From the NCBI RefSeq assembly GCF_025403485.1, contig NZ_CP099966.1:868001-932000 (forward strand): a DNA stretch of 64,000 nucleotides, read 5' to 3'. The notes beneath the pieces are model-generated. The model was not told the origin of the DNA. It saw nothing but the letters and a program-made list of their open reading frames with translations, and did no database searches. A program made the translations under genes and the position numbers. This document shows positions 62,123 through 64,000 of this stretch, piece after piece. Position 1 is the first letter of the stretch. Each line of letters begins with the position of its first letter. The stretch comes from Chryseobacterium paludis (GTDB taxonomy: Bacteria > Bacteroidota > Bacteroidia > Flavobacteriales > Weeksellaceae).

Positions 62123-62998
62123 ATGCACAAATCAGGATTTGTAAATATAGTTGGAAAACCTAATGCTGGAAAATCGACCTTGCTGAACCAATTGATGGGC
62201 GAGAAGTTGGCGATCGTAACGCAGAAGGCACAAACAACACGTCACAGAATTTTTGGAATTTATAATGAAGAGGACTTACAGATCGTATTTTCTGATACAC
62301 CGGGAGTATTAGACCCAAAATACGGGTTACAGGAAAAAATGATGGATTTTGTAAAGGACTCTTTACAGGATGCTGATGTCTTTTTATTCATTGTGGATGT
62401 TACAGATAAAGCTGAACCTTCAGAATTTTTAATTGAAAAGCTGAATAAAATTCCTGTTCCTGTTTTACTTTTATTAAATAAAGTAGATCAGACCAATCAG
62501 GAGGGACTTGAAAAATTGGTAGAAGAATGGCATAATAGGATTCCTAAAGCTGAAATTTTACCTATTTCTGCACTGAATGCATTTAATACAGATGTTATTC
62601 TGCCTAAGCTTAAATCGATGTTGCCGGAGAACCCACCTTATTACGATAAGGATCAATATACAGATAAGCCGGAAAGATTTTTTGTAAATGAGGCAATTCG
62701 TGAAAAAATTCTTCTGAACTATGATAAAGAAATTCCTTATTCAGTAGAAGTTGTTACCGAACAATTTAAAGAAAAGGAGGGAATCATTTTTATAGATTCT
62801 ATTATTTATGTAGAAAGAGATACCCAAAAGGGAATTATTATTGGCCATAAAGGGGAAGCAATTAAAAAAGTAGGAACAGAGGCAAGGATAGATCTGGAGA
62901 AATTTTTCTCAAAAAAAATTCACCTTAATTTATTCGTAAAGGTGAAAAAAGACTGGCGTAAAAACGACCGGGATCTGAAGAATTTCGGATACAGATAA
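62123..62998 (+). CDS. era: GTPase Era
   Basis: A 291-residue ribosome-assembly GTPase that binds the 3' end of 16S rRNA during small-subunit maturation. G1 is GKPNAGKSTLLN, G3 DTPG (FSDTPGVLDP), G4 LLNKVDQ and G5 PISALN. The KH domain lies at the C-terminus (IIIGHKGEAIKKVGTEARI), ending in KKDWRKNDRDLKNFGYR. It is cytoplasmic and of standard length. Confidence 0.98.
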   Translation: MHKSGFVNIVGKPNAGKSTLLNQLMGEKLAIVTQKAQTTRHRIFGIYNEEDLQIVFSDTPGVLDPKYGLQEKMMDFVKDSLQDADVFLFIVDVTDKAEPSEFLIEKLNKIPVPVLLLLNKVDQTNQEGLEKLVEEWHNRIPKAEILPISALNAFNTDVILPKLKSMLPENPPYYDKDQYTDKPERFFVNEAIREKILLNYDKEIPYSVEVVTEQFKEKEGIIFIDSIIYVERDTQKGIIIGHKGEAIKKVGTEARIDLEKFFSKKIHLNLFVKVKKDWRKNDRDLKNFGYR

Positions 62999-63064: not shown

Positions 63065-63493
63065 ATGAATTATAGTAACTCAAATTCTAATCCTATATTT
63101 AGAGATATTATACTGTTAATTGTGAGAGTTTTTATTGGATTTTCCATGCTTTCTCACGGATTTCCCAAGCTTCAGATGTTACTGGAAGGAGGGAAGATCG
63201 AGTTTTATGATTTCCTGGGGCTGGGTCCACAGATATCTTTAATTCTTACTATCGTAGCAGAGTTTGTATGTTCTATACTTCTGATTTTGGGATTGTTTAC
63301 CAGAGTAGCTTTAGGCTTTCTCATATTTACAATGGCTATTGCTGCCTTTGTAGTTCATGGTGCAGATCCTTTTGAGAAACGAGAATTGGCTTTCATTTAT
63401 TTATCTGCATATCTTCTGTTAATGTGCTTTGGAGCAGGAAGATTTTCGATAGATCATATGATTGAAAAAAGAAAAAGAGCTTCAGATTGGTAA
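63065..63493 (+). CDS. DoxX-family membrane protein
   Basis: A 142-residue inner-membrane protein with four hydrophobic segments. RVFIGFSMLSHGFPKLQM, AEFVCSILLILGLFTR and FVVHGADPFEKRELAFIYL are DoxX landmarks. The family includes subunits or relatives of quinone-linked oxidoreductases and actinobacterial thiol-homeostasis complexes. The function here is unknown. It is transcribed alone and ends at a strong bidirectional terminator. Confidence 0.88.
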   Translation: MNYSNSNSNPIFRDIILLIVRVFIGFSMLSHGFPKLQMLLEGGKIEFYDFLGLGPQISLILTIVAEFVCSILLILGLFTRVALGFLIFTMAIAAFVVHGADPFEKRELAFIYLSAYLLLMCFGAGRFSIDHMIEKRKRASDW

Positions 63494-63514
63494 AAAGATC
63501 TAAAAAAATATAAT

Positions 63515-63545
63515 AAAAAAGAGCATTAATCTAATGCTCTTTTTT
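63515..63545. terminator. bidirectional terminator between DoxX and the peptide gene
   Basis: A 14-bp perfect stem including A/T tracts (gagcatta with taatgctc) around a 3-nt loop. It serves the DoxX gene and the minus-strand peptide gene. Confidence 0.92.
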
Positions 63546-63552
63546 ATTTCTG

Positions 63553-63714
63553 TTAAGGTCTGCAAGGAAGTGTTGATGGTATGCAATCCCAAATTGGAGA
63601 ACCATTTTCATCTCTTCCCGTAACACAAGCTCTATAACCTGATTCACACAAAGGGGCATTTCCTCCATTAACAGTCTTAAGGTCTTTCTTTGATAATTTG
63701 CGTAAATTTTTCAT
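63553..63714 (-). CDS. bacteriocin-like small peptide with double-glycine leader
   Basis: A 53-residue peptide. The N-terminal part, MKNLRKLSKKDLKTVNGG, is a typical double-glycine leader (Leu and Lys spacing before Gly-Gly), to be cut by a C39-type peptidase/ABC transporter after residue 18. The mature 35-residue part (starting NAPLCESGYRAC) has four cysteines at 23, 30, 44 and 51, spaced C-x6-C-x13-C-x6-C, and ends PCRP. It lies 8 bp from the terminator at 63515. The gene is similar in pattern to the one 151 bp upstream. No transporter or modification gene is in the window. Confidence 0.8.
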   Translation of the reverse strand: MKNLRKLSKKDLKTVNGGNAPLCESGYRACVTGRDENGSPIWDCIPSTLPCRP

Positions 63715-63828
63715 ACTTTTTTGATTTAATTTGAATCACTAATGTAATATTTATTTTATTATATCACAAGATTAGGATTAAATGCTATTTAATTGTTCTT
63801 AATTTTATAAGCTGAAAATAGATAAAGA

Positions 63829-63854
63829 AGGGCATTTCATTTTTGAAATGCCCT
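63829..63854 (-). terminator. terminator after the second peptide gene
   Basis: An 11-bp perfect stem (63829-63839 with 63844-63854) with a 4-nt loop and a weak T-rich tail, just past the stop at 63866. Confidence 0.7.
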
Positions 63855-63865
63855 CTCTTGATTTA

Positions 63866-64000
63866 TTAAGGCTTACATGGTAAAGATGCCCAGACACAGG
63901 TCCATTTTGGTGTGTCGTCTTCACCAATTATCATACAGGGCTTGAATCCTTGTGGACATTCCGGAGCACTGCCACCATTAATAGCTTTAAGATCTTTCAT
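63866..64000 (-). CDS. second bacteriocin-like peptide, probably cut by the window edge
   Basis: At least 44 residues are visible. An ATG sits exactly at the right edge (MKDLKAINGG), but by comparison with the neighbouring peptide the leader probably starts a few codons beyond the window. After Gly-Gly comes SAPECPQGFKPC, a middle with WTCVW, and LPCKP at the end. The cysteines (visible residues 15, 22, 35, 42) are spaced C-x6-C-x12-C-x6-C, one less in the middle than in its neighbour. APxC after Gly-Gly and LPC(K/R)P at the end are shared between the two. Confidence 0.75.
   Translation of the reverse strand: MKDLKAINGGSAPECPQGFKPCMIIGEDDTPKWTCVWASLPCKP

Follow-up and report, generated by a model that had tools for sequence, protein, structure and literature searches.

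The two small genes pep1 and pep2, at the right edge of a 64,000-nucleotide stretch of Chryseobacterium paludis DNA (the window, bases 868001-932000 of the single 5,050,391-base contig), would belong to a large Chryseobacterium repertoire of secreted peptides that are rich in disulfides, have a leader in common and are encoded at many separate places. Through this leader of 18 residues, every precursor of the repertoire would be directed to a single C39-type ABC exporter, whose gene is at another place in the genome (G000:C1:4112740-4114932). The exporter would cut after the Gly-Gly and, together with a HlyD-type adaptor, release the core. The disulfides would be formed by a VKOR-thioredoxin fusion enzyme beside the exporter, and this enzyme may bind the same leader via a C39-like N-terminal domain. 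Outside the cell, the mature peptides would be antagonists directed at other Bacteroidota, made with no immunity gene of their own. For this reading as a whole, a dispersed repertoire with one shared exporter and oxidising enzyme and with antagonism of other Bacteroidota as its purpose, we place the chances at about even.

If this reading is correct, the bacteria of a common environmental genus have at their disposal a very large stock of natural mini-proteins rich in disulfides, which share one exchangeable leader and are oxidised and exported by one machinery. It would amount to thousands of such peptides over the genus, by extrapolation from the 1,385 leader matches summed over 59 genus genomes. 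This stock would be a source of new scaffolds and a simple system for Gram-negative disulfide-peptide folding during export, and would offer a way to test directly whether peptide warfare among Bacteroidota can do without immunity genes.

The peptide pair and its surroundings

The pep1 gene (63553..63714, minus strand) encodes 53 residues. Its leader, MKNLRKLSKKDLKTVNGG, has 18 residues ending in Gly-Gly (63661-63714) and is followed by the 35-residue mature part NAPLCESGYRACVTGRDENGSPIWDCIPSTLPCRP (63556-63660), with the cysteine pattern C-x6-C-x13-C-x6-C. The visible portion of pep2 (63866..64000, minus strand) is cut by the window edge. The full gene has 52 codons for amino acids and reaches window coordinate 64024 (L009:3867-4025), and the ATG at 64000 is not its start but codes for a Met within the protein. 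Its full form consists of the leader MKNLRKLSMKDLKAINGG, also of 18 residues, and the 34-residue mature part SAPECPQGFKPCMIIGEDDTPKWTCVWASLPCKP (63869-63970), with the pattern C-x6-C-x12-C-x6-C. In both peptides, the motif APxC follows the first mature residue and PC(R/K)P is located at the C terminus. Reading both genes directly therefore confirms what the earlier note had described: two adjacent minus-strand genes with Gly-Gly leaders and cores of 35 and 34 residues, cysteine spacings of 6-13-6 and 6-12-6, and nearly identical ends.

The two proteins share 54% identity, and each mature part carries a net charge of -1. The leader family is already known, as the NCBIfam model NF047798 (leader_Chryseo, 'bacteriocin-like protein'), and both full-length peptides score above its curated cut-off of 23.5 bits (34.6 bits for pep1 and 24.5 bits for pep2). 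By sequence comparison, the resemblance between the peptides and their scores with this profile exceed what chance would be expected to give. The model spans only the 18-residue leader and is silent on the core, the exporter and the function. The window-truncated pep2 alone matched no NCBIfam model, a Pfam scan of pep1 and truncated pep2 gave no family at its cut-off, and among bacteriocin models none other than NF047798 reached its cut-off with either peptide. A third member of the core family is located at 1919850 of the same genome, and identical proteins of the same tandem pair are present in the record of Chryseobacterium sp. ISL-6 (L146).

A model of pep1 calculated from 42 sequences has modest overall confidence (mean pLDDT 70.9, pTM 0.42), with residues 21-50 forming a block at pLDDT 83-87. 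This block contains a hairpin with strands at residues 27-34 and 40-46. Residue 30 is placed opposite residue 44, and extension of this register places residue 23 opposite residue 51 (sums of 74). Nested disulfides, C1-C4 and C2-C3, are therefore likely, and the mature parts of pep1 and pep2 are probably anionic beta-hairpins with this pairing, as deduced from the modelled strands. A Foldseek search with the hairpin model gave 44 matches at E<=10, the best at 2.6, and no solved structure resembled it significantly. The pep1 profile found a single match among PDB sequences, histone H3.1, with an E value of 0.16.

On the left, the pair is preceded by two plus-strand genes, whose products we take to be, from their sequences, the GTPase Era (62123..62998) and a DoxX-like membrane protein (63065..63493). 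The latter is the conserved left neighbour, and both serve here as syntenic markers only. An inverted repeat with a T run (63512..63548), matching its own reverse complement at 92%, lies between the convergent doxX-like gene and pep1 and is probably a terminator shared by the two. A similar copy of this repeat is present at G000:C1:2958093-2958148 in the same genome.

On the right, the next gene beyond pep2 encodes an 803-residue protein, presumably an S9 family peptidase, and is followed by ordinary-looking genes. The earlier note had suspected a larger cluster past the right edge of the window, and this suggestion has to be given up. The 15 kb past the edge contain no leader peptide except pep2, and in the whole-genome leader-profile search the nearest other matches lie at contig positions 756 kb and 986 kb, the latter being the first on the right. 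Inspection of the neighbours by eye recognised no ABC transporter/peptidase or thiol oxidoreductase, no immunity gene, receptor, regulator or modifying enzyme, and no ATP-grasp gene.

Homologues and selection

The same slot, in the order era, doxX, peptide and S9 peptidase, is found in 30 of the 30 best loci, the window's own included. The 32 peptides of these loci were located with a leader expression requiring at least two cysteines, and all 32 have four cysteines in the same arrangement. So does the peptide of locus L109, which was missed by the expression yet is intact, and which stands outside the selection analysis. Tandem pairs among the best 30 loci occur in the window genome, in G104 (the same species by genome survey, and probably the ISL-6 genome, as its match lies where that of L146 does, at 661134 of a contig) and in G132. 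The type of core in the slot varies by species. By mature identity, and with the window's own peptides included, 22 of the 32 are nearer to pep1 (two of them by small margins) and 10 are nearer to pep2, and the window pair therefore carries one of each type.

Relatives at other places occur in up to four copies per stretch, mostly with 6-11/12/13-6 spacing. The 80 loci from named genomes gave at least 79 distinct peptides, 52 of which fit the pattern C-x6-C-x10-14-C-x3-7-C, with spacings of 6-n-6 (33 peptides), 6-n-3 (17) and 6-n-5 (2). Among the 27 of the 79 that do not fit, 17 have 6-5-6 spacing. Trp42 and the four cysteines are invariant over 42 aligned sequences, most of which were selected by their cysteine pattern; the four cysteines are also invariant in all eight aligned sequences chosen without it. 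A four-cysteine search of 173 genus genomes gave a match at E<=1e-5 in 142; some of these matches are weak and may be due to the leader, and the figure is not taken as a count of the core family. Homologues in related genomes, on which the earlier note had staked its proposal, do exist, with intact relatives in many Chryseobacterium genomes, and the frequent stop codons that it regarded as fatal were not encountered. Among the matches listed, the relatives are mostly free of stops; seven show one stop, and in the two that were examined (L099 and L114) this stop is the regular end of the gene, downstream of the fourth cysteine.

The pN/pS ratios (Nei-Gojobori) pooled over 29 sequences are 0.20 for the leader and 0.44 for the mature part, and those over the 23 closest pairs are 0.17 and 0.35, respectively. 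Between the window genome (G000) and G132, pep1 has one non-synonymous and 12 synonymous differences in the mature part (5 and 8 in the leader), and pep2 has 6 and 13 (6 and 6 in the leader). The mature parts of pep1 and pep2 differ from each other at 21 synonymous and 29 non-synonymous positions (pS 0.90), too diverged to judge selection. The window family is under purifying selection, which by the pooled ratios is less strong in the core. A 'diversifying' family in the sense of positive selection is not borne out by averages well below 1 in both parts, although in such short peptides a few fast-evolving sites could escape notice in the averages; these figures do not show an arms race.

The fixed synteny and the conservation also suit a signal. 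A role as extracellular signals (pheromones) or as matrix factors, serving cells of the producer's own kind, would be in keeping with the doxX/S9 peptidase slot retained in all 30 best loci, with purifying selection, with the anionic mature peptides and with the lack of a recognised immunity gene beside the pair. On the other hand, about fifty different cores in one genome (see below) are many for signals, the core type in the same slot differs between species, and no gene next to the pair looked like one for a receptor or regulator. Signalling is, on balance, a rather unlikely role, and targeted antagonism is retained as the preferred one.

The leader-sharing repertoire, its probable exporter and the VKOR-thioredoxin enzyme

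A search of the whole genome with the NF047798 leader profile gave 56 matches at E<=1, and 35 of these exceed the cut-off. Two (4167925 and 679258) were left out of the counts, and two others were dropped, one for lack of an ATG start (3158799) and one of 26 residues without cysteine, though over the cut-off (3411728). The remaining 52 leader-sharing precursors, 34 of them over the cut-off, are located at 32 places, counting genes separated by less than 5 kb as one place. Although these peptides were selected by their leader and not by cysteine, 49 of the 52 have an even number of cysteines (six in 28, four in 18, eight in two and two in one), and three have an odd number. Against a 50:50 expectation and assuming independence, this excess has a p value of 5e-12, which is overstated because many of the 52 peptides are paralogs, and the count ignores shared ancestry. 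The mature parts, as defined by a simple leader-cutting rule, have a median length of 36 residues and a mean net charge of -1.0, with none at +3 or more. As the mature parts of pep1 and pep2 are anionic as well, cationic lysis is an unlikely mode of action. The peptide-finding expression (leader and at least two cysteines) recovers 45 of 54 own-genome sequences, and peptide counts in other genomes are therefore lower bounds.

Six of the leader peptides in this genome (at 92062, 2442469, 2442685, 4073926, 4734756 and 4734935 of G000:C1; loci L024, L016, L049 and L014) have the spacing C-C-CC-C-C, which is knottin-like. A profile of these members matches 13 proteins, of which the seven with a source name are all from Chryseobacterium; at least one of the 13 (P0025) has another cysteine pattern. 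Such scaffolds raise the possibility of an action on eukaryotes (predators, hosts or competitors), for example as enzyme inhibitors. Anionic multi-cysteine peptides with varied frameworks would suit this role, and the knottin-like spacing of the six members would fit it. However, neither the window family nor the C-C-CC-C-C family is significantly similar to a solved structure in the searches run (for the latter, two PDB matches at E<=1, the better being 6cei_A at 0.29), and a C-C-CC-C-C peptide could be modelled only poorly (mean pLDDT 61.2). We regard a eukaryotic target as unlikely, and other Bacteroidota are preferred as the targets of the repertoire.

The genome encodes two C39 ABC exporters, so that the exporter type anticipated in the earlier note is present, though at a distance. 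The first (locus L045, G000:C1:4112740-4114932, minus strand) is about 1.9 Mb from the window genes, given a circular contig, and has no linkage to pep1 and pep2. It is found with leader-like peptides, the VKOR-thioredoxin enzyme and a HlyD-type protein, in the order VKOR-thioredoxin gene, small peptide, C39-ABC gene, small peptide and HlyD-type adaptor gene, all on the minus strand. The peptide after the exporter gene has a leader score of 23.6 bits in the genome search and 22.4 bits in the protein scan; the peptide before it scores 13.7 bits only and lacks the Gly-Gly.

The VKOR protein of this locus carries the Pfam domains VKOR and Thioredoxin_4. It has six cysteines, at residues 174, 186, 253, 256, 365 and 368, the last four arranged as CxxC pairs. 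Within its first 118 residues, an hhalign alignment to the C39 domain of the exporters extends over 82 columns, with a probability of 89.5 in local mode; the global mode gave 58.2. This C39-like region is free of cysteine, the first being residue 174. In the distant VKOR relative of G051, the Pfam model PF03412 scores 25.6 bits (cut-off 22) inside the protein. From this domain composition, we infer that the protein may be a disulfide relay, and one that may bind the same leader as the exporter.

The second exporter (L054:6534-10306, at 4662321, or 4.66 Mb) adjoins a gene whose product resembles JmjC_2 (16.1 bits, where 22 would be needed) and one for a cysteine-less peptide, which is rich in valine and arginine and has an RGG leader. 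This locus looks like a different modified-peptide system, and because of these two neighbours the second exporter was set aside as a likely partner of pep1 and pep2.

The leader and the enzyme are distributed together across genomes, in counts that ignore shared ancestry. Within the genus, 54 of 59 genomes have the leader, with 6-45 matches each at E<=0.001, and a VKOR ortholog (E<1e-140) is present in all 54 of these and in one of the five leader-negative genomes. Among the latter, G011, G055 and G058 have no such ortholog, and G051 has a distant relative only. The one with the ortholog, G028, keeps the VKOR, C39-ABC and HlyD genes (L121, G028:C13:60000-76000) with no leader match in the genome at E<=0.001, and no leader peptide was seen between the three genes. 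C39 genes in general are no guide to the leader, as 58 of the 59 genomes have one. In G037, the VKOR ortholog is broken into two overlapping matches (G037:C1:4131916-4133420), one with internal stops, beside an intact C39 match, and this genome has 42 leader matches.

In 29 of 30 VKOR loci, the C39-ABC gene starts no more than 1.5 kb past the VKOR gene on the same strand, and the 30th locus ends at a contig edge. Leader peptides are found in at least 19 of these 30 stretches (none by the same expression in 11), and G009, G030, G038 and G056 each have a leader match above 39 bits less than 1 kb from the VKOR gene. In a sample of 148 genomes of the family, the leader is present in 36 and the enzyme (E<=1e-50) in 36, with both in 33, the leader only in three and the enzyme only in three, provided that both searches covered the same genomes, which their sample sizes and the handles listed indicate. 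Beyond the genus, the corresponding numbers are 11 with both, three with the leader only, three with the enzyme only and 107 with neither, assuming that the 92 unlisted genomes of each search hold no further genus members. The enzyme in the three enzyme-only genomes of the family sample is of a more distant kind (34-38% identical). In a phylum sample, 10 of 247 genomes have the leader, four of the 10 belonging to the genus.

Known systems and the role of the peptides

Pediocin-like class IIa bacteriocins have a Gly-Gly leader, C39 export and disulfides, features that would be shared by pep1 and pep2, but their YGNGV motif is absent from both peptides. The NCBIfam family NF047792 (CCPGW family putative bacteriocin) has a weakly similar leader; pep1 and pep2 score 17.9 and 17.3 bits with its model, below the cut-off of 80.

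The closest likeness is to the bacteroidetocins, the proposed class IIf, as they are portrayed in parts of the published account (PMC6671954). These have a Gly-Gly leader of 15-16 residues and four cysteines, and their regions consist of four clustered genes, for a C39 ABC protein, a transmembrane protein, usually a thiol oxidoreductase, and the four-cysteine peptide. As a class they are characterised by killing Bacteroidales. Loss of the thiol oxidoreductase weakens activity, and those parts of the account report that no immunity protein was found. The likeness covers the Gly-Gly leader, a length of about 40 residues, four cysteines, the C39-ABC protein with a thiol oxidoreductase and the lack of an immunity gene, and is a comparison of published descriptions rather than a sequence alignment.

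There are several differences, however, between the two systems. The leader has 18 residues in pep1 and pep2; their cores, of 34-35 residues with four cysteines, are similar in size to those of bacteroidetocins A and B (42 residues) and have the two or more cysteines that mark the class. The two bacteroidetocins are basic (+2 and +6; PMC6671954), whereas pep1 and pep2 are anionic. Their genes are clustered, whereas the exporter and oxidoreductase here are at the distant locus L045, and about fifty leader-sharing precursors are present per genome in this Chryseobacterium. Synthetic bacteroidetocins made without disulfide formation are described as active (PMC6671954), and disulfides therefore need not matter for killing. 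The bacteroidetocin target is reported to be BamA, in a paper whose main text nowhere mentions Chryseobacterium (PMC8546649).

The antagonistic role is the weakest step of our reading. Receptor-targeted antagonism is favoured because the bacteroidetocins combine the same elements, and by this analogy it would be right in roughly one case out of two; the negative charge of the peptides and their distance from the exporter count against it. The earlier note had offered secreted, disulfide-stapled bacteriocins or signals. Its first part fares well, with membership in a Gly-Gly family, a fitting C39 exporter and likely disulfides, and between its two functions we lean towards antagonism, short of proof.

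A bolder form of the same idea is an arsenal of one exporter and many cores, which we advance tentatively and hold to be somewhat more doubtful than the reading above. The leaders of about fifty dispersed genes would be read both by the C39 protease of the exporter and by the C39-like domain on the VKOR-thioredoxin relay, such that any core behind the leader would be oxidised and exported. The frameworks would range from two-disulfide hairpins to bacterial cystine knots, organised like the families of animal venom peptides.

Gly-Gly leaders are also used by enzymatically modified RiPP systems, and pep1 and pep2 could be lanthipeptide, rSAM, MNIO or graspetide products instead of disulfide peptides. 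The rSAM-modified RiPP model TIGR04149 matches pep1 weakly (14 bits, compared to the 25 needed), and a DUF692/MNIO family gene (PF05114, 104.5 bits; G000:C1:861926-862555, L226) is located about 6 kb left of the window. However, no modifying enzyme was recognised among the neighbours of the pair, and the even cysteine numbers and the VKOR-thioredoxin enzyme at the exporter favour disulfides. The lanthipeptide enzymes that the earlier note proposed to look for find no counterpart, as the genome has no match to the LanC-like cyclase family (PF05147). Modified RiPPs are an improbable explanation. Chryseobasin, an MNIO/DUF692 RiPP of Chryseobacterium with a CPACGMG motif, likewise comes from a small cysteine-containing precursor of this genus (PMC10214503), but CPACGMG is absent from pep1 and pep2 and the MNIO gene of this genome is not adjacent to them.

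Exported relics or neutral by-products of leader duplication would agree with the wide variation in copy number (6-45 among the 54 leader-positive genus genomes), but are very improbable given pN/pS well below 1 in leader and mature part and the four cysteines kept in the best 30 loci and in all eight sequences aligned without the cysteine pattern.

Among the papers listed in a literature search with little coverage of subscription journals and of bioRxiv as such, none, judged by its title and the opening of its abstract, dealt with this peptide set; other Chryseobacterium peptides are described in PMC8939145 and PMC10214503.

In the 150 bases upstream of the peptide genes, the motif TAnnTTTG, which we take to be the Bacteroidota -7 box, is not enriched (11 of 52 peptide genes, compared to 17 of 45 control genes of the window). 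The word AACTAAA is present in 15 of the 52 upstream stretches and in none of the 45 controls, and could possibly reflect shared regulation of the peptide genes; it was chosen post hoc after many words had been inspected and serves as a lead only. Two arrays of leader peptides are also present in the genome. One (L048, G000:C1:1621411-1622648) has five peptides, four with the cysteine framework 7-6-4, and the other (L056, 4252209-4253702) has seven, three with the framework 3-12-8-0-9.
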